Shown: positions 44,506 through 60,095 of the stretch, in pieces
Layout of the letters: each line of letters begins with the position of its first letter
Numbering within the stretch: the stretch's first letter is position 1
NCBI RefSeq assembly: GCF_038957035.1
Contig: NZ_CP152412.1
Coordinates: 8,056,501-8,120,500 of the forward strand
Length of the DNA stretch: 64,000 nucleotides
DNA from: Bradyrhizobium sp. B097
Lineage (GTDB): Bacteria > Pseudomonadota > Alphaproteobacteria > Rhizobiales > Xanthobacteraceae
Direction: 5' to 3'
The notes under the pieces: generated by a model
What the model was told of the DNA's origin: nothing
What the model saw: the letters and a program-made list of their open reading frames with translations, nothing else
Databases searched by the model: none
Position numbers and translations under genes: made by a program

Positions 44506-45810
44506 CTAGGATCGACTCTTTGGACGTGGCCACAGGCCTCCTTCAGACCATGATTCAGATTCTTCTGGGGACATCGGATCGGCTCCGCCGCCGGTCCGGG
44601 CAGGATCGGAATTGAGCCAGCGGTGCAACTCGAGCTTGCCTATCTGGTTGCGGTGGACCTCATCGGGTCCGTCGGCTAGCCGCAGCAAGCGGGTCGTAGC
44701 GAGCGCCGCAGAAAGGAAATGGTCGTTGTTGGTTCCACCCCCACCGAAAACCTGTATGGCCCAGTCAACAATCGTCTGCGCCATGTTTGGCGCGACGACC
44801 TTGATCATCGCGATTTCCTGCCGCGCGGCCTTGTTGCCGACCGTATCCATCATATAGGCCGCTCTGAGAGTCAGCAGGCGGGCCTGCTCGATCTTCATGC
44901 GCGCTTCGGCCAAGCGTTCAAGCGTAACCGTTTGCTCGGCGAGAGGCTTGCCGAAAGCAACACGTTTCAGCGCTCGCCGGCACATGCGCTCGAGCACGCG
45001 CTCGGAAAGGCCGACCAACCGCATGCAATGATGAATGCGTCCAGGCCCAAGCCGTCCCTGCGCGATCTCAAATCCACGCCCCTCGCCAAGCAGCATGTTG
45101 GTGGCGGGCACGCGCACATTGGTGAACATCACCTCGGATGCACGATCCGGCACGCCGTAAAATCCGAGCACCGGCAGCGAACGGACAACGTGCACGCCCG
45201 GTGTATCCTTCGGCACAAGAATCATCGATTGGCGCTTGTGACGGTCAGGGTGTGCCGGATCGGTCTGCCCCATGAAGATGATGATCTTGCACCGCGGATC
45301 GGTGGCACCGGTCGTGTACCACTTGCGGCCGTTGATCACGTAATCGTCGCCGTCACGCACGATCAGGCTGGCGACATTGGTCGCGTCCGACGAGGCAACG
45401 TCAGGCTCGGTCATCGCGAACGAAGAACGAATCTCGCCCGCGAGCAACGGCTTCAGCCAGCGCTCTTTCTGCGCCTCCGTACCATAGCGCAGGATCGTCT
45501 CCATGTTGCCGGTGTCCGGCGCACTACAATTGAAGACCTCGGGAGCAAGATGCGAGCGCCCCATGATTTCACACAGCGGCGCATATTCGAGATTCGTCAG
45601 CCCGTCCTCGTGAGCCGGCAGAAACAGGTTCCACAAGCCGGCACGTTGGGCGAGCGGCTTCAGTTCCTCGACAACCGGATGCACGGCCCAGGGCCCGAGC
45701 CGCTCCGCCTCCTGATAGTATCGGTGCTCATTCGGATAGATGTGCTCCATCATAAAGCGCTGGATGCGCTCGGCCAGTTCAAGGCTGCGTTCGCTTTGGG
45801 TGATATCCAC
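44506..45810 (-). CDS. Acyl-CoA dehydrogenase family protein
   Basis: A 434-residue flavoprotein with the ACAD layout: N-terminal helices, [15 protein letters not shown] and the WYTTGA beta-domain, then the C-terminal helical domain ([40 protein letters not shown]). It resembles the ACAD10/11- and FadE-like branch acting on longer or branched acyl-CoAs. GTG start at 45810 with AAGGAG 7 bases upstream. It is the last gene of the long transport/catabolism operon, 11 bases after the acyl-CoA synthetase, so it probably oxidises the CoA ester made by that enzyme. Confidence 0.9.
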
Positions 45811-45821
45811 GTAAATTCTCC

Positions 45822-47501
45822 TTAACCGGTGCGCAGGCCGTCCCTGAGCGTGTTTCGGGTGATCTTTCCGGATTCCGTCTTCGGCAGATCGTCCAACACG
45901 CGAATGTCGACGGGGCATTTGTAGGCTGCCAGTCGCTCGCGACAGAAGCGGGAGAGCGCGGCGACATCGATTGTCGTACCGGCTTGGGCGGACACGAACG
46001 CCACCACCGTCTCTCCCCGATAGGAATCGGCGGCGCCGACGACGGCTGCCTCGCGCACACCCGGAAAGCCGTAGATCACGTCCTCAACTTCGCGTGGCCA
46101 GACCTTGAAGCCGGAGGCGGAGATCATGTCTTTCTTGCGGTCCACCAGATAGAACCAGCCGTTCTCGTCAAAGAAGCCGACGTCGCCGCTGTGCAGCCAA
46201 CCATTGCTCAGCACCTCGTCGGTTTCCGTCGGCTTTTTCCAGTAGCCCGCCATCACGCCCGAACCGCGCACAACTACTTCGCCATGCTCGCCGGGCCCGA
46301 GCGGGCGACGCTCGTCGTCAACGACGATCGCATCGACGGCGGCCGTCGGCCTGCCGATAGAAAGCGCACCGGACCCTGGATCGACGGGAATCGGACCTTC
46401 GTTGGGTGCAAGGTGACTTGCAGAGGTCAGTTCAGTCATTCCGTAGGAACTGCGGATCGCCCTCCCAAACCGTTTCGCGAACGCGTCGATGACCGAGGGA
46501 GCAATCGGCGCGCCGCCGGAATAGAGATGTACAAAGCTCTCGAAATGGCGGCTGGTCGCGTCGGCCTGGTTCATGAGCGCGATGAACGCGGTAATGGCGC
46601 CCACGATGAATGTCGGCCGCCATTCAAGAAAGGCATCGAGCGCGACCTGCGGCTGGAAGCGATAGGTCAGCACCATCGCCGCGTGCGCGGCGAAAGCCGC
46701 GACCATCTGGATCTCGAAGCCGGTGATGTGGAACAGCGGCGCGACACCAAAGATCCGCGACATGCCGTTCAGCTCAAAATGATCGCGGCAGATCACCGCC
46801 GTCGCCACCAGATTACGATGCGCCAGCATCGCACCCTTGGGAACGCCCGTGGTCCCGGACGTGTAGAGCAGCAGCCCGATGTCGTCGGAGGTCAGAACCG
46901 GAACCGGCGGGACCGGTTGGTCTTCGGCGAGGATCATGTCCAGCGCATGAGCCTGCGGCGCTCGGCCCGGCTCCGGCAGCACGCGGACATCGTTTCTCAT
47001 CTGGAATTCGCGAGCGGCAGTCCAGAGCACCAGTTCGGGATCGACCGTAGTGGCCGCCGTGAAAACATTGTCCCATTGGTCATCGTGGCAAATCACCGCC
47101 TTGGGCTCGCAGTCCTTGAACAGCTTCCGAAGCTCCGGCGTGCGGTACATCGGGTTGAGGCTGACGACAATGGCCCCGACCTTCCAGGCCGCCACGCTGA
47201 CGATGACGAATTGCGGCACATTCTGAAGAATGACGGCGACCCGGTCCCCCCGCCCAACCCCTTTGCGTGCGAACACAGCGGCGAGCCGGTCGCTGTATCG
47301 GTCAACATCGCCATAGGTCTGCATCGCATCGAAATAGAACAGTGCCGGTGCCTCGCGCGGCGCGGAGCGAAACAGATCGAGCGCCGTCAGCGTACTGCAA
47401 TCGGGAACAACGACAGGCGAATCCACGAGACGCGCCCGCAGCCGGCCTGCGGCCTCCTCATAAGCGCGCAGCCGTGATGCGGAATCGGATTCGGCCATCA
47501 T
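45822..47501 (-). CDS. AMP-dependent acyl-CoA synthetase
   Basis: CoA ligase of about 559 residues. Core motifs: [20 protein letters not shown] near residue 195, [52 protein letters not shown], and the catalytic lysine in [12 protein letters not shown]. Long/medium-chain or aryl-acid ligase type. Placed between the GntR gene and the acyl-CoA dehydrogenase. It likely activates the carboxylic acid that enters through the ABC transporter (inference). Starts at 47498 and 47507 are also possible. Confidence 0.9.
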
Positions 47502-47615
47502 CCTCATTGCCCGTTGCCGCCGCGGTCGCAACGATTCCCGCCGCGCCCGACCCTGCCGCTCTGATGGCCGGCCGCCATCATCAACGTGTCGCGGACGACG
47601 CCGGCGCTCCGGAAA

Positions 47616-48407
47616 CTAGTCATTGGACCTTTTCCCTCGATAGACCGAGCCGAGACGGGCGTGCGGCGACGCGGCGCGGCTCGCAAGGGGCGGTCGGACC
47701 ATCCCGCTCTCCTTAGCCTGAATGACAACGCGCGTGCGCCGGATGTGGAGGCGTACCAGCACCTGCGCGGCGTCGACATCGCGCGCCCGGATCGCATCCA
47801 TGATCAGGACGTGCTGGGGATCGGAGAAAGGGAAGCCGTCCTTGGCATACGTTTCGCTGACGAATTGCCGCCGGAAATGCTGCGTGCTGTTCCAGAAGCG
47901 CTCGACCATCGCCAGCAATTGCGGCATCTGCGCGCGCGAATATGTGCGTAGATGAAACTCCCGATCAAGCTGGATGTATTCCTCGAGCGTCGTGACCTGC
48001 TCGAGTTCGCGTACGATGCGGTCAAGCGCCTCGATGTCCTCGTCGGTCAGGTTCGGTACGCTTTCGCCGATGGCAAGGGGCTCGACCGCTTCACGTATCT
48101 TGTAAATCTCGATCGATTCTTCCGAGTTGACGTCCGCAATCCAGGCACCGCGGTTCGGCGCCATCACGACCAGCCCCTCGTTCTCGAGCTGCTTCAGGGC
48201 TTCGCGCACGGGAATGCGACTCGCTCCGAAATGCGCCGCGAGAAGCTCCTGCCGGATCCGCGTACCCGGCCGCATCTCCCCGCTCAACACCGCGCTGCGG
48301 ATTTCACTTGCGATCCGCTCGCTCATCAGCCGACCGCCCTCCGGATCGTCTTCGTTAGCGTCGCGCGCCGTGTCGTTCCAATGGGGAGGCCGCTGATAGG
48401 CACTCAT
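47616..48407 (-). CDS. GntR family regulator with FCD domain
   Basis: A 263-residue regulator. The N-terminal winged HTH is at residues about 28-95 (MRPGTRIRQELLAAHFGASR, IPVREALKQLENEGLV). An FCD effector domain follows, with metal-binding residues in YIQLDREFHLRTYS and late histidines (DPQHVLIMDAI, VRLHIRRTR). Embedded in the operon, 15 bases after the ATPase gene. It probably represses the operon promoter near 55.4 kb, where TGTATCCAG half-sites are found, with the substrate or its acyl-CoA as inducer. Confidence 0.9.
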   Translation of the reverse strand: MSAYQRPPHWNDTARDANEDDPEGGRLMSERIASEIRSAVLSGEMRPGTRIRQELLAAHFGASRIPVREALKQLENEGLVVMAPNRGAWIADVNSEESIEIYKIREAVEPLAIGESVPNLTDEDIEALDRIVRELEQVTTLEEYIQLDREFHLRTYSRAQMPQLLAMVERFWNSTQHFRRQFVSETYAKDGFPFSDPQHVLIMDAIRARDVDAAQVLVRLHIRRTRVVIQAKESGMVRPPLASRAASPHARLGSVYRGKRSND

Positions 48408-48422: not shown

Positions 48423-49964
48423 TCAGTGAATGGCCGCGTACATGATCTTGTCCTCGGTCGCATCGGCCCGCGTCATTTCCTCGACGATACGCCCGCCGCG
48501 CGCGACCAGTATCCGATCCGAGATCGCCAGGATCTCCGGCAAATAGGAAGAGATCACGACGACCGCCTTGTTCTCGCCCGCCAGCCCGCGAATTGCCTGG
48601 TGGATCTGCGGAATGGCGCTGACATCGACCCCTCGCGTCGGCTCGTCGAAGATGACCACTGTCGGTTCCTGCGCCAGAGACTTCCCCACCACGACCTTCT
48701 GCTGATTGCCGCCGGAATATTCTACAATCTTCAATGTTCGCTTCAGCGCCGAGATGGAGAGTGCCGAGATCCATCGATCGGCAATCCGCTTCATCTCGCG
48801 CGCGGAGTAGAAGAACCGCCTGATGCGCGGCGACGACAGATAGCCAAGATAGATATTCTGATCCACCGTCATTGTCTCGAAGAAGCCGTCGACTTTCCGA
48901 TCCTCGGTGATATATGCGATTCCATCGCGCACCGCCTGCCGCGGCACCCGGTAGCGGACGGGCTTGTCCCGGAGATAGATCATCCCGCCGCGCAGGAAGT
49001 TGCGCTTGCGCGCGCCGCTGACGATCTGCGCAATCTCGGAACGTCCTGCGCCCACCAGTCCGAAAATACCGACGACTTCCCCGTTGAAGACCGAGAAGGA
49101 CATATTCTTGACGATGCTGCCCATCGTCACATTCTCGACCGAAAGCACCTTCTCTCCGCGCGCCGACTGCGCCTTCGGTGCATCCGGATCAGCCCCGTGG
49201 GTCGCGTACTGAGCTGCCGTTTCCTCGCGGCCAACCATCATGCGGACGAGCGAGTCGCGGGTGACGTCCTTTGCGGGCACCGTGGCGACGAGCTTGCCGT
49301 CCCGGAGTACGGTGATGCGATCGGCGATATTGAGCGCTTCTTCCAGCGCATGCGAGATGAAGATGATCCCGGCGCCCTTCTCTTTCAGGGTGTTGAGAAG
49401 ATGGAACAAATGCTGCGTTTCTTCGGGCGTCAACGACGCAGTCGGTTCATCGAAGATGAAGACCTGTGCATTGTGGCGTACGGCACGCACGATCTCGACC
49501 ATCTGCCGCTTGGCAGTTCCGAGATTCTCGACCAGCACCAGCGGATCGACATTGAAGTTCATCGATTGCAACGACTGCGTCGCCGCAATATTGATCTTGC
49601 TATAGACAGTAACCCACTTCTCCATGCCGAGTTCGAGATTCTGCGCGACCGTCATCGACGGCACCAGACTGGACTCCTGGTAGACCATCGCGACGCCGCC
49701 CTCGAGCGCCTCCTTTGGCGAGGAAAACGAGACCTTGCGTCCACGGATCATATAGTCCCCGGAGGTCAGGACGATTGCGCCGGCGATCGCCTTGCACAGC
49801 GTCGACTTTCCCGCACCGTTCTCACCCAGCAGCGCGTGGATTTCGCCCGGCCGCAGATCGAAATTGACGCCGTCGATCGCATGCAGGCCGCCATAGACCT
49901 TGCTACCATTGACGACCTGCAGCAGCGGGGTGCCTGCCTGTTGTTCCGCGGGCATGGCGCTCAT
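48423..49964 (-). CDS. Sugar-type ABC transporter ATP-binding protein (RbsA/MglA-like)
   Basis: A 513-residue tandem ATPase with two nucleotide-binding domains, as in RbsA. The first has a Walker A in LLGENGAGKSTLCKAIAG, signature-like TAKRQMVEIVRAV and Walker B FIFDEPTASLT. The second has the degenerate GLVGAGRSEIAQ P-loop, SGGNQQKVVVGKSLA and VIFDEPTRGVDV. It powers import together with the two permeases of the operon. The start overlaps the upstream propeller gene stop by four bases (ATGA). In RbsA-type proteins the second site is usually the degenerate one, as here. Confidence 0.93.
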   Translation of the reverse strand: MSAMPAEQQAGTPLLQVVNGSKVYGGLHAIDGVNFDLRPGEIHALLGENGAGKSTLCKAIAGAIVLTSGDYMIRGRKVSFSSPKEALEGGVAMVYQESSLVPSMTVAQNLELGMEKWVTVYSKINIAATQSLQSMNFNVDPLVLVENLGTAKRQMVEIVRAVRHNAQVFIFDEPTASLTPEETQHLFHLLNTLKEKGAGIIFISHALEEALNIADRITVLRDGKLVATVPAKDVTRDSLVRMMVGREETAAQYATHGADPDAPKAQSARGEKVLSVENVTMGSIVKNMSFSVFNGEVVGIFGLVGAGRSEIAQIVSGARKRNFLRGGMIYLRDKPVRYRVPRQAVRDGIAYITEDRKVDGFFETMTVDQNIYLGYLSSPRIRRFFYSAREMKRIADRWISALSISALKRTLKIVEYSGGNQQKVVVGKSLAQEPTVVIFDEPTRGVDVSAIPQIHQAIRGLAGENKAVVVISSYLPEILAISDRILVARGGRIVEEMTRADATEDKIMYAAIH

Positions 49965-51079
49965 CCTTTCTGGGCGCCGCGACCACGCGGCAGTTCAACC
50001 AGGCAATCGCGTCCCTTGGACACCGCGAGCACGCGAGAGCCAATCGGGCGGACGGCGGTTACTCCATGGACCCGACCATCTACTCGGCTGTGCAACGTCT
50101 CCACCGCTATGCCCTTGGCATCCAGCCGCGCAACGAGACCATACGAACGCGGCGGCGCCCACGGCTTCTGAATGCCGAGCTTCTTGATGCGGCCGATCTG
50201 GGTCGGCTCGCGCGGATTGAGGCGACCATCCAGCACCGGCCCGATCCAAAGCTCCGATGGTACCGTCCGCATCATTTCTTCGCAGAATGCCCGTTCGCGC
50301 AGGACGAATTCGGTCAGCTGCGTGCGAAGCGCCAGGAAGGCCATCCAGACCTCTCCGTCCGCGCCGCGGCCAAGACGCGCCGGATAGCCGGTATAGTTCT
50401 TGACGATCACGCGTCTCTCACCGCCGTCGCGTGGAAAAGCGGTCAGGCGATGAGCCCAGGATTCGGCGACCCACACCTCATTGCCGTCGCTGGAAGCGAC
50501 CACGCCAAGCGGCCAAGCAAGCTTGTCCGCACGCACGCTCGCGCCACCGAGCGAGGCATCGCAAGCGATGAGCCGGCCCGATGGGGCGCGATTCTGCATC
50601 AGGTCGGTAAGCCAGAGGTCAGCCTGGTTGGTACGCGAACCGTCGGTCAGATAGATCGCCCCATCGGGGGCTACCGTCACCGACAACGCACAGGCAATCT
50701 TCTCACCACCGACGCTTTCGAGCTTTGCGACGATCTTCCCGACTGGCGAAAGCGCCACCAATCCAACGCCAGAAATGCAAGCCAGCAGCCTGCCGTCCGG
50801 CACGGAGGCAAGCCCGCCGACAGGACCGTCAAGTGTTGCGAACACCTCCCGCGCGTCGAAATCATCCCCAGTACAACGCAGGATGCTGTTGCCGGTCGAG
50901 ACATAAAGCGCACCGTCCTGCCCGAATGCGATGTCATCCGGCCGTTCGATCTCTGCGCCGAGCTGGCGGGCACCGTCGAGCCGCTGGTTCGGGGAGAACG
51001 CGCCGTCGAGCACCGGAATGCCATGAAGCTCCCGGTTCGGGAACAACACGCGATCGACGATGTCGCCAAGCAGAGACAT
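49961..51079 (-). CDS. Stand-alone beta-propeller, SMP-30/strictosidine-synthase-like, ligands altered
   Basis: A 372-residue cytosolic six-bladed propeller homologous to the C-terminal half of the permease encoded upstream (compare IERPDDIAFGQDGALYVST with its EGPEDVILDRKDNLYTV). In SMP-30-type lactonases the metal is held by Glu, Asn and Asp. Here the FPNG Asn position reads WPLG and the PDN-like position reads GYPARLG, so two of the three ligands seem lost. No signal peptide. It may be a non-catalytic subunit or bind a ligand. Four-base overlap with the ATPase gene. Confidence 0.78.
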   Translation of the reverse strand: MSLLGDIVDRVLFPNRELHGIPVLDGAFSPNQRLDGARQLGAEIERPDDIAFGQDGALYVSTGNSILRCTGDDFDAREVFATLDGPVGGLASVPDGRLLACISGVGLVALSPVGKIVAKLESVGGEKIACALSVTVAPDGAIYLTDGSRTNQADLWLTDLMQNRAPSGRLIACDASLGGASVRADKLAWPLGVVASSDGNEVWVAESWAHRLTAFPRDGGERRVIVKNYTGYPARLGRGADGEVWMAFLALRTQLTEFVLRERAFCEEMMRTVPSELWIGPVLDGRLNPREPTQIGRIKKLGIQKPWAPPRSYGLVARLDAKGIAVETLHSRVDGRVHGVTAVRPIGSRVLAVSKGRDCLVELPRGRGAQKG

Positions 51080-51082
51080 GGC

Positions 51083-53194
51083 TCAGGCCTCTCCCCAATA
51101 AGATTTGTGCGCTTCCCAGGTCGGATCAGCGTCCTGCAGGCGGATACGGCCGATGCGGTTATTCTCGAGACCCCCGATATAGAGGTAGCCCTTGTGTTCG
51201 CGGACCGAGGTGATCGTTGGATGCGAAAGCCCGCCCGGATCCCAAAGCGATTCGGTCACGACGCCATTGTCGTCGAACTTGGCCACGCAGCCGTAGTTGA
51301 TCCCCGGGCACAGCCACTCGTCCGGTGGGATCTGCTTGACCATCCGGGTGCGGAAAACGGGATTGCGCATTGCAAGGTCATAGACCGGCGTGCGCAGGCC
51401 GACGAAGGCAAGCCAATATTTGCCATCCGAGGCGCGGTTGATGTTGTCGCAATAGCCTGGAAGGTTGTCGATCAGGATCTCGCTGGTGCCTGCCTTCGGG
51501 CCGGCGATCCAGTAGCGGTTGACCTGGCACAGCCAGGTGCTCGCCCACAGCACCGACCGGCCGTCATGCGAGATGCAGATGCCGTTGGGGAATGTCAGGT
51601 TTTTGAGGACGGTCTTGGTGGTGCCGGTTTTCGGATCGTGGCAGATCAGCCGGCCGTTGCCGCGGCCCTCAAAGCCGTCGAGCGCCCAGTCGGTCAGCTC
51701 GTAGCGCGTCGAGGCTTCGCTGAAGTAGATCTTGCCGTCGGGCGCGACGTCGAGATCGTCGGCGAGATAGAGCCGCGAGTCGTCCTTGAGGCGTGTACGC
51801 GTACGTGTGGTGCGGTCGGTGACCTTGAAGACCGATCGATCGGGCTTGACGCCATACACTCCCATCCCGGCGATGCAGACAAGGAGGTTCTGGTCCCGAT
51901 CAAATGCCAACCCAAGCGGCCGGCCGCCGATGCGCGCGAACTCCTCACGCGCGGTATAGTCAGGCGCGAGAAAGCGAATGATCGAGCCATTGCGGTTGAC
52001 GGTATAGAGGTTGTCCTTGCGGTCGAGGATGACGTCCTCCGGGCCCTCGATCATGTTGAGCGCGATCGCCTCCGCATTCTTCAGGCGGTCGTTCTCCGCG
52101 AACGGCGTGCCGCTGCCGCGCTCGACCGACGGCGGGGGCTCGAAATCGACCCAGCTTGGGGTGACATAGACCTTTTGCAGCACCTTGCCCTTGTTCTTGA
52201 CCCACTTCACATTGAAGCCGACCGCGAGCAGCAGGATGACGCCGATGATGGCTGTCGTCAGGTTGCCGGAAATCCCGAGCCGCACCATGCCGCTGGTGAG
52301 CATGAAGATGATCGCTGCGCCCATGACGGCGCGCGCGATGGTGCCGCGGCCGCCGGCAAGACTGATGCCGCCAAGGACCACCGCGGCCAGCGCGTTGATC
52401 TCCCAGCCGACGCCGGTGTCGGTGCCCGAACTGCTTTGCCGAGCTGCATAAAGGATCCCCGCCAGTGCCGCGATCGACCCTGACATCACATACGCCGAGA
52501 ACAGCACGCGCTTGACGTTGACACCGGCGTGGCGGGCCGCCTTGCGGCTCGATCCAACCGCCATGATGTGGACGCCTGGCTTGATACGGGTGAGAAAGAA
52601 GTGTGTTCCGACGGCAAGCACGATCAACACCAGCATATTGACGGGAATGCCGAGAGCTCTGCCCGACCCCATGAAATCCCATGCACTGGACCCGCTATCG
52701 ATGCTTGCGAGCTCATCCGTGAACGCAACCGTCACCTTGTTGTAGGCCGCGCGGACGATGATGAGGACGACCAGGGTCGTCAGGAACGGCCGGGTTTTGC
52801 CGTAGGCAATCAGGCCACCGTTGATCGCCCCCATTGCGGCGCCGAACAGGATGACAAGAACGATCATCAACGGCAGCGGCAGCCCGACAATGAGATACAG
52901 ATAGAGTGCGAGGAAGTTCGACATCGCGAACACCGCGCCGACCGACAGATCGATGCCACCTGACAGCACCGAGAAGGCCATCGCGACCGCGACCATCCCC
53001 TGCTCCGCGAAATTCCGCATCAGTTCCTGAAGGCTGCCCGCTGTCAGGTAGCGCGGGATCATCACCGCGAATGCCAGGAACACCGCGATCGTGAGCGTGA
53101 ATGGAATGATCGGCTCCATCCACCGCTTTTCAAGCAGCTCACCCAGGAGCAGCTGGGGCGAATGGCGATGCCAGGCTCGTTGCAGGCTTTTCAT
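51083..53194 (-). CDS. ABC permease fused to a C-terminal SMP-30/strictosidine-synthase-like propeller
   Basis: A 703-residue fusion. Residues about 30-345 are an RbsC-type permease (FAEQGMVAVAMAFSVLSGGI, DLSVGA, then VVLGGISLAGGRGTI). After a short linker, residues about 365-703 form a six-bladed beta-propeller of the gluconolactonase/strictosidine synthase group. Metal-ligand positions look intact: Glu in MIEGPEDVIL, Asn in LTFPNGICIS, Asp in YCDNINRASDGKYW. RbsC-type permeases end in the cytoplasm, so the propeller should face the cytosol and could act on substrate as it enters. ATG at 53194 (a TTG lies one codon earlier). A shorter propeller paralogue follows 3 bases downstream. Confidence 0.88.
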   Translation of the reverse strand: MKSLQRAWHRHSPQLLLGELLEKRWMEPIIPFTLTIAVFLAFAVMIPRYLTAGSLQELMRNFAEQGMVAVAMAFSVLSGGIDLSVGAVFAMSNFLALYLYLIVGLPLPLMIVLVILFGAAMGAINGGLIAYGKTRPFLTTLVVLIIVRAAYNKVTVAFTDELASIDSGSSAWDFMGSGRALGIPVNMLVLIVLAVGTHFFLTRIKPGVHIMAVGSSRKAARHAGVNVKRVLFSAYVMSGSIAALAGILYAARQSSSGTDTGVGWEINALAAVVLGGISLAGGRGTIARAVMGAAIIFMLTSGMVRLGISGNLTTAIIGVILLLAVGFNVKWVKNKGKVLQKVYVTPSWVDFEPPPSVERGSGTPFAENDRLKNAEAIALNMIEGPEDVILDRKDNLYTVNRNGSIIRFLAPDYTAREEFARIGGRPLGLAFDRDQNLLVCIAGMGVYGVKPDRSVFKVTDRTTRTRTRLKDDSRLYLADDLDVAPDGKIYFSEASTRYELTDWALDGFEGRGNGRLICHDPKTGTTKTVLKNLTFPNGICISHDGRSVLWASTWLCQVNRYWIAGPKAGTSEILIDNLPGYCDNINRASDGKYWLAFVGLRTPVYDLAMRNPVFRTRMVKQIPPDEWLCPGINYGCVAKFDDNGVVTESLWDPGGLSHPTITSVREHKGYLYIGGLENNRIGRIRLQDADPTWEAHKSYWGEA

Positions 53195-53308: not shown

Positions 53309-54331
53309 TTACTTCGCGCCCTTCGGGATGCTGAAGCAGTACATCCGATCGTCCTTCGACTTCACCCAGGCGGGGGTCGTGTAATAGGCGACGTTCTTCG
53401 AGCCCGGCTTGTCGCCGCTCTGCAAGAGCGCGATCACCGCGTCGGCAATGGTCTGTCCCTGCACGTCGGCGCGATACGACAGGTTCGCGGAGAACGCGCC
53501 CTGTTCCAGCAGATCGCAATCCGCGGGCTGCCCGTCGCTGGCAACGAACACCTTCACCTTGTCGCCCATGTTGGCCGCCTTGATCGCCTGCGCTGCGCCG
53601 GCAGTTTGCGGTCCCCAGACGCTGAGGATCCCGCACAGCTTGGGATGCTGCTGCAACACGGTCGTCGTGATATCGCCGGCCTTGTTGGCGTCCCAGCTTG
53701 TCGGCTGCGACGACACGACCTTGATCGACGGGTCGGTCTTGAACACTTCCATGGCGCCGTTCTTCATGTCCAGCGAATAGGCTGCGGTCGCCTCGCCTTC
53801 GAGGATCGCGATCTCCCCCGAACCCTTGCCGCCGCCGCACTGGTTGATCACCTCGCGGGCGATTTTGGTGCCGAGATCCTTGGCATCGACGCCGACATAG
53901 GCGTCGCTCAGGGTGTTCGACGCCATGTTGACCTGCACGACATAGATGCCCGCATCCATCGCACGCTTGAGCTCCTTGGCGAGCAGCGTGACGTTCGGAT
54001 TTTGAACAACGAGCACATCAGGCTTTTCGTTGATGTAGTCGCTGACGGTCTGAAGCTGGATGTCGGACTTCATGTTGGCGTCACGCGTGACGAGCTTGAT
54101 GCCGTAATCATCGAAACGGTCTTTCATCACGCGCGTCCACTCGGATTCCAGTACACCCATCCAGACCGGCGACCAGGCCACCGTCTTACCCTTGAGCGCC
54201 TTGTCGAATTTCTCGCGCAGCTGGTCGCGAGGTCCTGCCGCCTGCGATGGCACCGTCACCAGCACGGCGGTTGCCACAATCGCCGCCAGCCCGAAGCCGG
54301 CAAGCGCCTTCCTGTGCACTGCTTTCGTCAT
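53309..54331 (-). CDS. Sugar-type ABC transporter substrate-binding protein
   Basis: A 340-residue periplasmic binding protein with a signal peptide (cleavage near VPSQAAG). It has the PBP1/ribose-binding fold (KPDVLVVQNPNVTLLAKELK, DAGIYVVQVNMAS, GILSVWGPQTAGAAQAI, KVFVASDGQPADCDLL). Cys residues are present at several places, including ADCDLL. It delivers the substrate to the two permeases of the operon. Sugar-like folds in this family also bind non-sugars. The in-frame extension upstream of the ATG covers the permease gene and is not real. Confidence 0.92.
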   Translation of the reverse strand: MTKAVHRKALAGFGLAAIVATAVLVTVPSQAAGPRDQLREKFDKALKGKTVAWSPVWMGVLESEWTRVMKDRFDDYGIKLVTRDANMKSDIQLQTVSDYINEKPDVLVVQNPNVTLLAKELKRAMDAGIYVVQVNMASNTLSDAYVGVDAKDLGTKIAREVINQCGGGKGSGEIAILEGEATAAYSLDMKNGAMEVFKTDPSIKVVSSQPTSWDANKAGDITTTVLQQHPKLCGILSVWGPQTAGAAQAIKAANMGDKVKVFVASDGQPADCDLLEQGAFSANLSYRADVQGQTIADAVIALLQSGDKPGSKNVAYYTTPAWVKSKDDRMYCFSIPKGAK

Positions 54332-54390
54332 GTTCCTTCCTCCCCTTCTATGCCGGCCGACTGTTGCGGCCCGTTGATGGAAACAGGGCT

Positions 54391-55377
54391 TCAATCGCCC
54401 TGCTTCGACGTCTCTTCGTCGCGCGGGTGCAGCCGGGAATCGAGCAGGATTGCGATCAGCAACACGATTCCCTTGACGATATTCTGGGTCTGCACGTCCA
54501 TGTCCATGATGGTCATGCCATTCAGCAGCACGCCGATCAGTAGCGTTCCGGCGATGACGCTCATCACATTGCCGCGGCCGCCGACGAGGCTGACGCCACC
54601 GAGCACCACGACCATGATGACATCGAAAATGATCGTCGATTCCGCAACCTGGAGATGCATCAGCGCCGTCTGCGCGACCATCACGACGCCGCCGACGTAG
54701 CCGATCGCCGCACACAGCGCGTATTCGATCATGGTCAGCGGACGGGTCGGCAGACCGGTCTGGCGCGCGGCATCGGGGTTGTCGCCGTGGGCATAGACGA
54801 AGCGCCCGATGACCGTGCGCGACAGGAAGAGATGCACGACGAGCGCAGTGGCCGCGAAGATCAGGATCGAGATCGGGACGCCCCCCCAGATGTTTCCGCC
54901 CAGCCGCAGGAACTCGTCGTGCCCCTTCGAAAGGTACACGACATAGTGCTGCACAGCCGTGGTGCGCACGATTCCCAACACTGCAAGGCTGGATGCAAGC
55001 GTCGTCAGCAGCGGCGGCATCTCGATCACCGAGATGAGAAACCCGTTCAGGATGCCGATGGCAATTGCCATCACGAAGCCGATCAGCAGAGCCACCGGCG
55101 TCGCGTAGCCTGAGTTCATCAGAATGATCGCGATCGCGGTGGAGGCAGCGAAGGAAGCGACTTGCGACAGATCGAGTCCACGGCCGATCACGACGACCGC
55201 CATGCCGAGCGCGAGAATGCCAAGTATCGAAATGTTGCGCGCCAGCGCGAACAGATTGCCGAGCGTCAGAAAGCCCTTCAGGAAGATCGAGAAAACGACG
55301 ATCAACACCGCGCACATCGCCAGCACGGCGGTCGTCTGCGTCAATTTCGGCCCGCGCGCGCCCGAAATGCCGGTCAC
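54391..55377 (-). CDS. ABC transporter permease (RbsC-like)
   Basis: A 328-residue inner-membrane protein of about ten helices with RbsC features (LGMAVVVIGRGLDLSQVASF, MVVVLGGVSLVGGRGNVMSV). Probably pairs with the propeller-fused permease as a heterodimer driven by the tandem ATPase. GTG start preceded by GGGAGG. First gene of an eight-gene leftward operon extending to 44506. Confidence 0.92.
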   Translation of the reverse strand: MTGISGARGPKLTQTTAVLAMCAVLIVVFSIFLKGFLTLGNLFALARNISILGILALGMAVVVIGRGLDLSQVASFAASTAIAIILMNSGYATPVALLIGFVMAIAIGILNGFLISVIEMPPLLTTLASSLAVLGIVRTTAVQHYVVYLSKGHDEFLRLGGNIWGGVPISILIFAATALVVHLFLSRTVIGRFVYAHGDNPDAARQTGLPTRPLTMIEYALCAAIGYVGGVVMVAQTALMHLQVAESTIIFDVIMVVVLGGVSLVGGRGNVMSVIAGTLLIGVLLNGMTIMDMDVQTQNIVKGIVLLIAILLDSRLHPRDEETSKQGD

Positions 55378-55970: not shown

Positions 55971-56588
55971 TCAGGCGCCCGACAACACCCAGACCCAGCC
56001 GCGAGCGGCGCGGTCGTGCTGTTGCCAGGCAACGATGTCGTCCCGCTGCCGCAGCGTCAGCTCGATCTCGTCGATCCCTTCGATCAATGTCTTCCGCCGG
56101 GCGGCATCGATCTCGAAGCCGATCTGCTCGCCATCGGGCAATGCGATGGACTGACTGACTAGGTCGACAGTGAGCGCCTCGCCCTGCGCGGTCTGCGCCG
56201 AGATCGTCCTGACGGCTAATTCCGGGAGAGCGACCGGAAGCATGCCGTTCTGGAAGCAGTTGTTGTAGAAGATGTCGCCAAAGCTCTCGGCGATGACACA
56301 GCGCAGCCCTGCTGCCATCAGCGCCCATACAGCGCCTTCGCGCGATGAGCCGCAGCCGAAGTTCGCGCCCGCGATCAGGATCGGCGCAGCGCGGAACGCC
56401 GGCCGGTTCAGCACGAAATCCGGATTCTCGCTACCGTCCTTGTGATAGCGCAGCGCCTCAAGCGCATAACGTCCGAGTTGGTCGCGCGGCACCGACGTCA
56501 GCCGCTCGATCCGAATGATGAGATCGGTATCGATATTGGCGCGCGGCAGCGCGGCAGCGGGGCCGGTGACCTGAGTGAATGGTTGCAT
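55971..56588 (-). CDS. LeuD-like small subunit of an aconitase-family hydro-lyase
   Basis: A 205-residue swivel-domain protein with LeuD motifs: ANIDTDLIIRIERLTSV near residue 18, ILIAGANFGCGSSREGAVWA, and FGDIFYNNCFQNGMLPV. It pairs with the LeuC-like subunit encoded 2 bases upstream. Family members include isopropylmalate dehydratase, citraconase-type and dimethylmaleate hydratases. Its place in a catabolic operon with a lyase and a PrpF-type isomerase argues for a degradative substrate rather than leucine synthesis (inference). Confidence 0.88.
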   Translation of the reverse strand: MQPFTQVTGPAAALPRANIDTDLIIRIERLTSVPRDQLGRYALEALRYHKDGSENPDFVLNRPAFRAAPILIAGANFGCGSSREGAVWALMAAGLRCVIAESFGDIFYNNCFQNGMLPVALPELAVRTISAQTAQGEALTVDLVSQSIALPDGEQIGFEIDAARRKTLIEGIDEIELTLRQRDDIVAWQQHDRAARGWVWVLSGA

Positions 56589-56590
56589 CC

Positions 56591-57994
56591 TCAGAGTTTC
56601 CTTACATCGGTGATCATTCCGGTGACCGCGGCCGCGACCGCCATGGCGGGGCTTGCGAGATGGGTGCGCGCACCCGGCCCCTGCCGGCCGACGAAGTTGC
56701 GGTTCGATGTCGAGACGCAGCGGGCGCCCGTCGGCACCTGCTCCCCGTTCGCCGCAACACACATGCTGCAACCGGGCTCCCGCCATTGAAAGCCGGCGGC
56801 CTTGAACACGGCGTCGAGGCCTTCGGCCTCCGCCTTGCGCTTCACCTTCTCCGAGCCCGGAACTATCCAGGCATTGAGCCCGGGCGCGACCTGCCGGCCG
56901 CGCGAAAGACCGGCGGCCTCGCGCAGGTCGGACAGCCGCGAATTGGTGCAGGAGCCGATGAACACCCAATCGACCTTGGTGCCAGCGATTGGCCGCCCCG
57001 GCGTCAGCGCCATATAGTCCAGCGCCTCCTGCCACGCCTTGCGACTGACAGGATCGGGCGCAGTGGCCGGATCGGGGATGGCCTGATCGATCGCGATCGC
57101 ATGCTCCGGGCTCGTGCCCCAGGTGACGGTCGGCGCGACATCGTCGGCACGGACGATCTCGTCACGATCATAGCGTGCGTCGGCGTCGGCATGGAGCGAA
57201 CGCCAATGCGCGAGCGCATCGTCGAACGCCTTGCCCCTGGGCGCGAAGCGGCGTCCTTCGACGTAGCGGAACGTGGTCTCGTCGGGAGCGACGAAGCCGA
57301 TCTTGGCACCGAGCTCGATCGACAGATTGCACATGGTCATCCGGGCTTCGACGTCCATGGCCCTGACCGCTTCACCGCCATATTCGACGGCGTATCCCGT
57401 GCCGGCCGATGCACCGACCTTGCCGATCAGATGCAGGATGAGATCCTTTGATGTCACGCCCTTGCCGGGCTTGCCTTCGAACCGAACCCGCATCGCCTTG
57501 GGTCTGCGCTGACGCAGCGTCTGCGTGGCCAGTGCATGCGTCAGCTCGGACGAGCCTACCCCGAAGGCCAGCGCACCCAGCCCGCCATTGGTGCAGGTGT
57601 GGCTGTCGCCGCAGATCAGCGAGACGCCGGGCAGCGTGATGCCGAGCTCGGGCGCCATCACATGCACGATGCCCTGCCCCATGTCGCCGAGCTCGAAATA
57701 GCGGATACCGGCCTTGTGCGAGAGATCGCGCAATCCCGCCCAGAGTCTTGCGCCCGGCTCAAATGTCTCGCCGGTGCGCCCCGGCCGTGTCGAGACCACG
57801 TGATCGGGAGTTGCGAAGGCAAGCTCGGGATTTGCCACAGCATGGCCCTTCTGCGCCAGCGCCGCGAGGCCCGCAGTGCCCGAGAGGTCATGCAGCAGAT
57901 GGCGGTCGATGTGCAGTAGCGACCAGCCACCGCCGAGATCGGCCACGACATGCAGGTCCCACAATTTGTCGAGCAGTGTCTTCGCCATGGTCAT
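56591..57994 (-). CDS. LeuC-like large subunit of an aconitase-family hydro-lyase
   Basis: A 467-residue [4Fe-4S] hydro-lyase subunit. Cluster cysteines are visible in VFIGSCTNSRLSDLR and EPGCSMCVAANGE. LICGDSHTCTNGGLGALAFG supplies active-site His/Ser. The start ATG overlaps the stop of the upstream lyase gene (ATGA). Operon context suggests hydration of a substituted maleate or aconitate-like acid. A role as ordinary LeuC is possible, but no leuA or leuB is nearby. Confidence 0.9.
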   Translation of the reverse strand: MTMAKTLLDKLWDLHVVADLGGGWSLLHIDRHLLHDLSGTAGLAALAQKGHAVANPELAFATPDHVVSTRPGRTGETFEPGARLWAGLRDLSHKAGIRYFELGDMGQGIVHVMAPELGITLPGVSLICGDSHTCTNGGLGALAFGVGSSELTHALATQTLRQRRPKAMRVRFEGKPGKGVTSKDLILHLIGKVGASAGTGYAVEYGGEAVRAMDVEARMTMCNLSIELGAKIGFVAPDETTFRYVEGRRFAPRGKAFDDALAHWRSLHADADARYDRDEIVRADDVAPTVTWGTSPEHAIAIDQAIPDPATAPDPVSRKAWQEALDYMALTPGRPIAGTKVDWVFIGSCTNSRLSDLREAAGLSRGRQVAPGLNAWIVPGSEKVKRKAEAEGLDAVFKAAGFQWREPGCSMCVAANGEQVPTGARCVSTSNRNFVGRQGPGARTHLASPAMAVAAAVTGMITDVRKL

Positions 57995-58872
57995 TCCGCC
58001 GCCCGTGGCGCAGCCGCATCGCGGAACCTGGTCGAAAGCGCGATCCATTCGTCGGAGCCGAGCCGGCGGAACCGCTCGCTGACCGGCATGGCGCCTGCCG
58101 AGCTCGGCGGCGCATTGGTCTCCTTGACGCCGCGCAGCGCGGAAATACAGGCTTCCGTTGCCGCGAGCAGCAGCAGGCTCGGCAGGATCGCAAGCCTGTA
58201 GCCGATCGATTGCGCCGTCGCGAAATCGATATCCGGTGTCTTGCCGCCGCGCACCACATTGAGCAGGCACGGCCCTTGCACCAGCTTCGGCACTGCCTGC
58301 AGCTCCTCCATGGTCTGCACCGCCTCGACGAAGGCCATGTCGGCACCGGCCGCGACCGCCGCGTTGGCGCGCGCAATCGCCTCGTCAAAGCCCGTGACAG
58401 CGCGGGCGTCGGTCCGCGCGATGATGACGAAATCCTGATCGCGCCGCGCCGCGACGGCCGCACGGATCTTGGCGACGAATTCGTCGGCGGGGATGATCTC
58501 CTTGCCGTCGAGATGGCCGCACCGTTTCGGCGCGACCTGGTCCTCGATATGAATGCCGGCGACGCCACGGGCCTCATGTTCGCGCACCGTGCGCGTGACA
58601 TTCAGCTCGTTGCCGTATCCGGTATCGGCATCGGCGATCACGGGTATATTGACCGAGCGCGCCAGGGTCGTCGCATTCGCCACCATTTCGGTCATCGTCA
58701 CCAGACCGAAATCGGGATAACCGAGCGTCGCCGCGGTGCCGGCGCCGGTCATGTAGACCGCCGGAAACCCGGCGCCCTCGACCAGCTTCGCTGTCATGCC
58801 GTCATAAGCGCCGGGTGCAAGAATGATTTGGCCGGAACGCATCAGGTTCCGATATGCCGTGGTCTGTTTCAT
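57991..58872 (-). CDS. Isocitrate lyase/PEP mutase family lyase
   Basis: A 293-residue TIM-barrel enzyme. The catalytic segment is APKRCGHLDGK (K-R-C-G-H), with metal ligands in ADADTGYGNELN and Glu in IHIEDQV. Relatives are 2-methylisocitrate lyase (PrpB), 2,3-dimethylmalate lyase and oxaloacetate decarboxylase. It should split a substituted malate or isocitrate to pyruvate or glyoxylate plus an acid. GGAG is 7 bases before the ATG. Flanked by a PrpF-type isomerase and a LeuCD-type hydratase, the order expected for an isomerise-hydrate-cleave pathway. Confidence 0.9.
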   Translation of the reverse strand: MKQTTAYRNLMRSGQIILAPGAYDGMTAKLVEGAGFPAVYMTGAGTAATLGYPDFGLVTMTEMVANATTLARSVNIPVIADADTGYGNELNVTRTVREHEARGVAGIHIEDQVAPKRCGHLDGKEIIPADEFVAKIRAAVAARRDQDFVIIARTDARAVTGFDEAIARANAAVAAGADMAFVEAVQTMEELQAVPKLVQGPCLLNVVRGGKTPDIDFATAQSIGYRLAILPSLLLLAATEACISALRGVKETNAPPSSAGAMPVSERFRRLGSDEWIALSTRFRDAAAPRAAE

Positions 58873-58886
58873 ATGGTTCTCCCAAT

Positions 58887-60095
58887 TCAAGCTTTGCCGG
58901 CGCTGACGGCGGCGACGTCGGTGAAAGTCGAAGTCGGCACGTAGACCGTGCCTTCCATGATGTGGCGCGCAGTGCGGCCGAAGCCGAGCTCATCGAATGC
59001 GACACCGCCGACCGTATTCGCATCGCGTGCCTTGACGCGGACCCGCATGATGCCGAGAGGATGGCCGATCCGTAGCGTATCGCGACCGTCCGGCGGCGCG
59101 CCGAGCGCCTGATTGACCAGCGAACCGGGAATTCGCGACGCCGCTGCCGTGCACATCGATCCGGTCCCCGCCATGCTCTCGTGGCACTTGTTGAAGAACA
59201 CCAGCCGCGCCCGCAGATCCATGTCGGAGGCAAGCACCTGCTCGCGTCGCATATTGCCGTATTCCGCTGGCGGCGCGACCAGCACCAGCAACGGTCCTCC
59301 CGTCGCTTCAGCTGACCGATCGCTGCAGCCCCGCGAAAACCCCATCCGCTCCGCCGATTTGCGGCGGATGTCCTCCAGCCGGGTGAGCAGCGGGCGGTTG
59401 CCATTGATCGCATCGGGAAGCTCGCTGCCCGTGAGGCCGACATCGCTGGCGCGAAAGAACGCGCAGGGATTGCCGACGTCACACAGCGTCACCTCGATGC
59501 GATCGCCGCCTTCGAGCTCCAGCGTGTCGACGGCATTCTCGGTCGGCAACATCCGCCCGGTGCGGGCGCCGAGCGTGAGATGATAGTCCATGAAGATCTC
59601 GGCGCCGGTCCCGGGCACACCGTCGATGGTGAAATCGCCGGTCACCTTTGCCCGTCCGCCCCGGACCGGGACATGCGCGATCAGAACCTTGTCGGTGTTG
59701 GTGTTGTAGATGCGAACGACGGTGACGGGCGAGACGACCTCGACAAGACCTGCGTTGATCGCGAATGGCCCGACGCCGGCGGAGATGTTGCCGCAATTGC
59801 CGCTCCAATGGATCGCATCTTGCTCGACCTCGAGCTGGCCGAAGGTGAAATCGACGTCGGCATCGCCTCGCGACGAGCGCTTGATGATCGCGATCTTTGA
59901 CGTGATCAGCCGCGAGCCGCCGAGACCGTCGATCTGGACCACGTCGGGTGTCCCCATGATCCGCTTCAGCACCCGGTCGCGCAGCGCACCACGCGGCGGC
60001 AGATCGGCCTCGTGGAAATAGACGCCCTTGCTGGTCCCGCCGCGCAGGATGGTGCAGGGAATGCCGGTCTGCTCGGGCAACACGCGTTGTTTCAT
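58887..60095 (-). CDS. PrpF-family isomerase (AcnD-accessory/methylitaconate-isomerase/GalD type)
   Basis: A 402-residue protein of the DAP-epimerase-fold PrpF family: IPCTILRGGTSKGVYFHEAD at the N-terminus, then WSGNCGNISAGVGPFAI with the first catalytic-type Cys, and GTGSMCTAAASRIPGSL with the second. Known members isomerise trans-aconitate-type acids, 3-methylitaconate or 4-oxalomesaconate. Lies 14 bases before the lyase gene and 10 bases after the MFS gene, so it is part of a tight operon. The exact substrate is unresolved. Confidence 0.9.
   Translation of the reverse strand: MKQRVLPEQTGIPCTILRGGTSKGVYFHEADLPPRGALRDRVLKRIMGTPDVVQIDGLGGSRLITSKIAIIKRSSRGDADVDFTFGQLEVEQDAIHWSGNCGNISAGVGPFAINAGLVEVVSPVTVVRIYNTNTDKVLIAHVPVRGGRAKVTGDFTIDGVPGTGAEIFMDYHLTLGARTGRMLPTENAVDTLELEGGDRIEVTLCDVGNPCAFFRASDVGLTGSELPDAINGNRPLLTRLEDIRRKSAERMGFSRGCSDRSAEATGGPLLVLVAPPAEYGNMRREQVLASDMDLRARLVFFNKCHESMAGTGSMCTAAASRIPGSLVNQALGAPPDGRDTLRIGHPLGIMRVRVKARDANTVGGVAFDELGFGRTARHIMEGTVYVPTSTFTDVAAVSAGKA

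Follow-up and report, generated by a model that had tools for sequence, protein, structure and literature searches.

Why would the permease of an ABC importer end in a β-propeller of an enzyme family, and what could the propeller do there? The question is raised by a single gene in a 64,000-nucleotide stretch of Bradyrhizobium sp. B097 DNA (the window). An earlier note had correctly placed the gene at positions 51083..53194, leaving out its strand (minus), and had read it as an RbsC-type permease that runs without a stop into a strictosidine-synthase-like propeller. Our analysis bears this out: a single frame, from an ATG at 53194 to a stop at 51083, is open over 703 amino acids. The permease domain (Pfam BPD_transp_2, residues 60-325, 2.5e-35; 52220..53017, minus strand) is the helical part of an AlphaFold2 model of the fusion, and the C-terminal half matches SSL_N (residues 364-408), Str_synth (479-565) and SGL (392-599) within a propeller domain that spans residues 364-690 (51125..52105, minus strand). 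The linker that joins the last helix to the first blade (residues 334-377; 52064..52195, minus strand) is 44 residues long in 294 of the 295 listed relatives. In the model, a prediction that the earlier note had called for, the propeller has the six-bladed fold of the N6P superfamily (mean pLDDT 82.1, pTM 0.61 for the fusion), and the mutual placing of the two domains is uncertain. A VIA-align structure list for the fusion covered mainly residues 362-703, that is, the propeller part. Among the matches listed, named entries go either by "ABC transporter permease" or by "SMP-30/gluconolactonase/LRE family protein," and both names hide one half of the protein.

Could a lost stop or an assembly error have made one gene of two adjacent ones? 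The order was sampled with 297 genomes, of which 38 had a match; three of these were single-domain relatives, and the remaining 35 genomes contained the fusion at 47 places. The layout was identical at 45 of the 47, each in an open frame of at least 707 amino acids, and the other two places are fragments in one broken assembly. Two paralogues from the same genome as the window, 57% and 49% identical to the window fusion, share this layout as well. A missed stop or frameshift is therefore very unlikely, and we give the error explanation a practically negligible probability: the paralogues, the order-wide recurrence and the constancy of the linker together rule out a chance fusion or frameshift.

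The same counts bear on how rare the arrangement is. A search for this domain order in other genomes had been proposed and was successful, and the accompanying claim that such a fusion is unusual does not stand, given the 35 genomes of the order and further cases in Beta- and Gammaproteobacteria. Loci outside the class come from Pseudacidovorax, Pantoea and Paraburkholderia, and Sodalis and Pseudomonas are among the listed names. In a phylum-wide sample of 299 genomes, nine carried the fusion (16 places), all of its own class; strong matches to a second, free propeller encoded beside it (PROP2) occurred in the same nine genomes, and ten other genomes had single-domain relatives only, at much weaker scores. 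On plasmids, 15 records carry the fusion over at least 80% of the query and one more carries it cut at the record end. The same 16 records top the list for the free propeller, and seven further records are weaker matches. The permease-propeller importer is a widespread transporter design.

The earlier note overlooked that the fusion belongs to a fixed cassette of five genes, which in the window all lie on the minus strand: a partner permease without a propeller (54391..55377, 328 amino acids, BPD_transp_2 by Pfam), a periplasmic binding protein (53309..54331, Peripla_BP_4), the fusion, the free propeller PROP2 (49961..51079, 372 amino acids, without a signal-like stretch), and a double-domain sugar-type ATPase (48423..49964, 513 amino acids), whose gene has 4 bases in common with the end of PROP2. 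The binding protein is given here from the first Met of the mature-looking frame; its family searches used 53309-54346, which is five residues longer. To describe the cassette, we read 40 fusion loci: the window, 21 from genome records, eight from plasmids, the two paralogous loci of the same genome and eight from further genomes, with the window and L009-L016 at least 96% alike. The free propeller and the binding protein were present in 40/40 loci and the partner permease and ATPase in 39/40 each; the two gaps are in L024 and L021, both short contigs. Contig or record ends cut the free propeller in L021, the binding protein in L024 and the ATPase in L023, L024 and L041. In one draft assembly (L013:5876-7885) the partner permease gene is broken into two frames, which may be a sequencing error. 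Pairing of the two propellers is equally regular in the order sample, where a search with the free propeller returned the same 35 genomes at 46 places. At 46 of the 47 fusion places it lies directly downstream on the same strand, with 2 to 107 bases between the matches, and the sole unpaired place is a fragment in the broken assembly. The genome of the window has three cassette copies including the one described here; the other two (L032, G000:C1:5842000-5860000; L033, 665000-683000) are complete and have the same gene order.

By its parts, the cassette encodes an importer of CUT2 type (RbsABC/AraFGH-like): two BPD_transp_2 permeases, a Peripla_BP_4 binding protein and an RbsA/AraG-type ATPase of about 500 amino acids with two nucleotide-binding domains are encoded in one cluster. 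It differs from the known importers of this type in that one permease bears a C-terminal propeller and a second propeller is encoded separately. No NCBIfam equivalog cut-off was reached among the matches listed (for the ATPase, 25 of 187 matches), and the ribose permease model scored 162.5 bits against a cut-off of 398.

The genes around the cassette are less constant. Downstream in the window, outside the fixed five, are genes for a GntR/FCD regulator (47616..48407, by Pfam), an acyl-CoA ligase-like protein (45822..47531) and an acyl-CoA dehydrogenase-like protein (44506..45918), all on the minus strand; the latter two adjoin the cassette in only part of the related loci. Neighbors suggest CoA chemistry in Bradyrhizobium, Sulfitobacter and Paraburkholderia, are sugar- or polyol-like in Pantoea, and include HMG-CoA reductase in Shinella. 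Flanking genes also differ among eight annotated plasmid loci, and no shared pathway emerged when selected flanking genes of the two paralogous cassettes and of L031, a related Methylobacillus locus, were scanned with Pfam and NCBIfam. The varied neighbors point neither to a particular solute nor to a single lactone. On the other side of the cassette, at 55971-58890 (minus strand), a 3-isopropylmalate dehydratase large-subunit gene scoring above cut-off, a stretch that looks by eye like the small subunit, and a methylisocitrate-lyase-like gene below cut-off lie side by side; this group could serve another hydratase-lyase pathway.

We next consider whether the fused propeller retains the features of an active enzyme. 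Its alignment, which comprised 40 fused, 39 free-partner and four single-domain propellers, indicates that the four divalent-metal ligand positions of N6P hydrolases (E, N or D, N, D) are kept, as the earlier note had proposed. The first, E386 (codon 52037..52039, minus strand, as for the other three), is E in 40/40 loci and 293/295 relatives; the second, D479 (51758..51760), is D in 172, N in 120 and a gap in 3 of the 295; the third, N537 (51584..51586), is N in 40/40 loci and 291/295 relatives; and the fourth, D583 (51446..51448), is D in 40/40 loci and 290/295 relatives. E386, N537 and D583 occur jointly in 289 of the 295 and also in all four single-domain propellers. Four of the six relatives with an incomplete trio (P0061, P0273, P0278, P0282, P0297 and P0315) are at most 528 amino acids long, the longer two being P0061 (755) and P0278 (667). 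Further polar residues are almost invariant (D472, D480, D482, R497, Y498, N584, N586, H658 and R680; each in at least 288/295). We take the ligand positions to correspond to E21, N120, N175 and D229 of DFPase, and PDB titles name DFPase mutants at these four residues.

The strictosidine-synthase-like subgroup is reviewed in PMC4215206, according to which the huge majority of its members seem to retain the four metal ligands, and proteins that do so are "more likely" hydrolases. Strictosidine synthase activity proper, which is metal-independent, can be rejected for the fusion: four aligned synthases have G at the places of N537 and D583, where the fusion has N and D. The fold and the kept ligands nevertheless fall short of proving catalysis.

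PROP2 presents the opposite picture. It too is predicted to be a six-bladed propeller (mean pLDDT 78.1, pTM 0.83), and its model aligns with 2fp8 at a TM-score by target of 0.80, whereas an intact four-ligand N6P metal site was found in 0/39 aligned free partners. Position one is D in 37 and E in 2; position two is T in 22, L in 14, N in 2 and S in 1; position three is L in 12, A in 7, S in 5, Y in 5, N in 3, F in 3 and other residues in four; and position four is A in 20, S in 10, G in 7 and C in 2, and D in none. Even the residue aligned with N584 of the fused propeller is changed, to R in 38 and K in 1. At the same time, PROP2 has conserved features of its own. An insert at residues 294-318 (50126..50200, minus strand), containing KPWAPPRSYG, is invariant around KPWAP, and an N-terminal motif is likewise invariant; both are of low confidence in the lone-chain model, with pLDDT below 50 at residues 288-311. 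Conserved segments that appear unordered in the chain alone are what an interface could look like. That the fused and free propellers touch each other is our guess from the conserved, low-confidence segments of both models.

On which side of the membrane would the propellers lie? Ten membrane helices can be made out in the fusion model, the shortest with just 11 residues; a hydropathy scan, which merges neighboring helices, gave nine segments. With ten helices, a basic N-terminus and a basic loop after the sixth helix, both ends of the permease are predicted to be cytosolic. Relatives in which a related permease is fused directly to a double ATPase (L031:9971-12511 and 22 further listed proteins among P0242-P0264, from Methylobacillus, Methylobacterium and Methylorubrum among others) point the same way, since the ATPase occupies the C-terminal place held here by the propeller and must be cytosolic. 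The proposal that permeases of this type end in the cytosol is thus supported by both observations, and we infer from the topology that both propellers are cytosolic. PROP2 has a highest 17-residue Kyte-Doolittle mean of 1.14, compared with 2.62-3.02 in four single-domain relatives (L042-L045, from G058, G190, G138 and G174). These four combine the three core metal positions with an N-terminal membrane anchor, and on account of the anchor they may be periplasmic, facing the other side.

If the propeller is part of the transport machine, its conservation should be compared with that of the other components. Across 21 representative cassettes (210 pairs), mean pairwise identity was 58.7% for the fused propeller, 60.9% for the ATPase, 48.2% for the permease domain and 41.1% for the binding protein. 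The fused propeller was more conserved than its own permease in 209/210 pairs, than the partner permease in 209/210, than the binding protein in 210/210, than the free propeller in 210/210 and than the ATPase in 74/210. Conservation close to that of the ATPase, together with the near-constant linker, suggests that the propeller belongs to the machine. An enzyme specific for one substrate should drift along with the binding protein; the fused propeller instead behaves like a motor part.

In the permease-ATPase fusions, as in the permease-propeller fusions, a large cytosolic domain follows a related permease at its C-terminus; the difference is that the ATPase replaces the propeller, and the one locus examined (L031, Methylobacillus arboreus) showed no propeller gene. 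In an unconstrained permease tree, the 23 ATPase fusions were nested (support 99/98) beside the clade of the window (97/99). A tree constrained to hold all 26 propeller fusions together had a likelihood 5.11 higher and was not rejected by the AU test (p 0.694), and a smaller tree recovered the propeller fusions as one group with support of 58/66; a first permease tree was set aside for its very long outgroup branch. Unrooted trees of the binding protein and the partner permease join L031 to the window-type cassettes (100/98 and 100/99), as does a further tree (96/84). This grouping would fit a loss of the propellers in L031. Upstream of the Methylobacillus importer lies a gene for a HalD-family halogenase (L031:1641-2450, by Pfam; the BesD model match is below cut-off).

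No description of a permease-propeller fusion was among the matches listed in the open-license literature, and no paper there joined "ABC transporter permease" with "strictosidine synthase." A word search of the accessible text of PMC3223731 found no cassette of this kind, and no permease fusion appears in the accessible part of PMC4215206; the domain studied here departs from that subgroup in its attachment to a permease, where it would probably face the cytosol. A comparable propeller fusion, the only one that we met, is described in PMC12362111: a Cu/Zn-SOD-propeller lactonase of Deinococcus radiodurans, one of 10 such proteins reported there from a single genus. It binds calcium through Glu200, Asn290, Asn339 and Asp381 and has weak lactonase activity on 2-coumaranone. 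It resembles the fusion in joining a propeller to another domain, but that domain is an enzyme rather than a transporter. Importer and lactonase genes also meet in ordinary ribose-type operons on plasmids of Neorhizobium sp. NCHU2750 and Rhizobium tumorigenes (L054:1871-4701 and L055:2051-4875), in which a gluconolactonase-family gene directly follows the second permease. These operons differ from the cassette in that the genes are separate and otherwise ordered, and the stretches shown contain no second gene for a propeller. Such gluconolactonase genes right behind ribose-type permeases make a functional link between importer and lactonase plausible.

In our reading, the cassette encodes a CUT2-type importer that has a metal propeller built in, probably in the cytosol, and an inactive partner. 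The fused propeller would sit on the exit side of the channel, beside the ATPase, where it would bind the solute as it comes in, or a chemical group shared by the solutes of this family, and most likely hydrolyze it, opening an ester or lactone with a divalent metal; such hydrolysis at the exit would pull uptake inward. The metal-less propeller would dock on the complex and, itself inactive, serve a structural or regulatory role. Hydrolysis at the channel exit, which the earlier note had suggested along with a substrate sensor at the pore, would be plausible, and we hold the whole of this reading, capture and probable hydrolysis next to a paired inactive twin, at slightly less than an even chance. 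It is favored by the open fusion, the fixed cassette and the co-occurrence of both propellers in the same genomes, and all four N6P positions of the fused propeller could bind metal. Against a substrate-specific hydrolase stand the higher conservation of the propeller relative to the binding protein in every pair and the differing neighbors. The near relative that does without a propeller (the permease-ATPase fusion) and the four anchored, possibly periplasmic single-domain relatives also weigh against the reading as a whole.

These same observations lend themselves to other accounts. The fused propeller might bind a cytosolic ligand or metal and switch transport by trans-inhibition, with the metal-less propeller as a mechanical partner and no catalysis at all. 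ATPase-like conservation exceeding that of the binding protein and the near-constant linker fit such a sensor, as do the varied neighbors, which make the ligand look generic rather than like the transported solute. We nonetheless consider it rather unlikely, as a complete and nearly invariant hydrolase-type ligand set exceeds the needs of a simple binding site and regulatory domains of ABC importers are usually found on the ATPase. Alternatively, both propellers could do no more than stabilize the permease heterodimer and the ATPase, with any metal playing a structural role. That a propeller devoid of a metal site is always paired with the fused one would be natural for a scaffold, and so would the segments of both propellers that are conserved but modeled with low confidence. 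Yet the numerous further polar residues that hardly vary, and that may line the pocket, would be superfluous in a scaffold, and L031 shows that a relative without an adjoining propeller gene exists; a purely structural role therefore seems improbable to us.

What would follow if the hydrolytic reading were right? A tethered propeller acting on the imported solute would mean that a single machine combines ABC import with catalysis. A more elaborate version, which we put forward tentatively and regard as somewhat unlikely, is that the solute is hydrolyzed as it leaves the channel, the inactive twin completes an asymmetric exit chamber, and the covalent change makes import irreversible. If true, this would bring to ABC importers an irreversibility by covalent change that is otherwise tied to group translocation. 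Even without chemistry on the solute, the transporter contains an active-looking and a degenerate copy of one fold, and the cassette would then still be a clean natural pair of enzyme and pseudo-enzyme built into a membrane complex.
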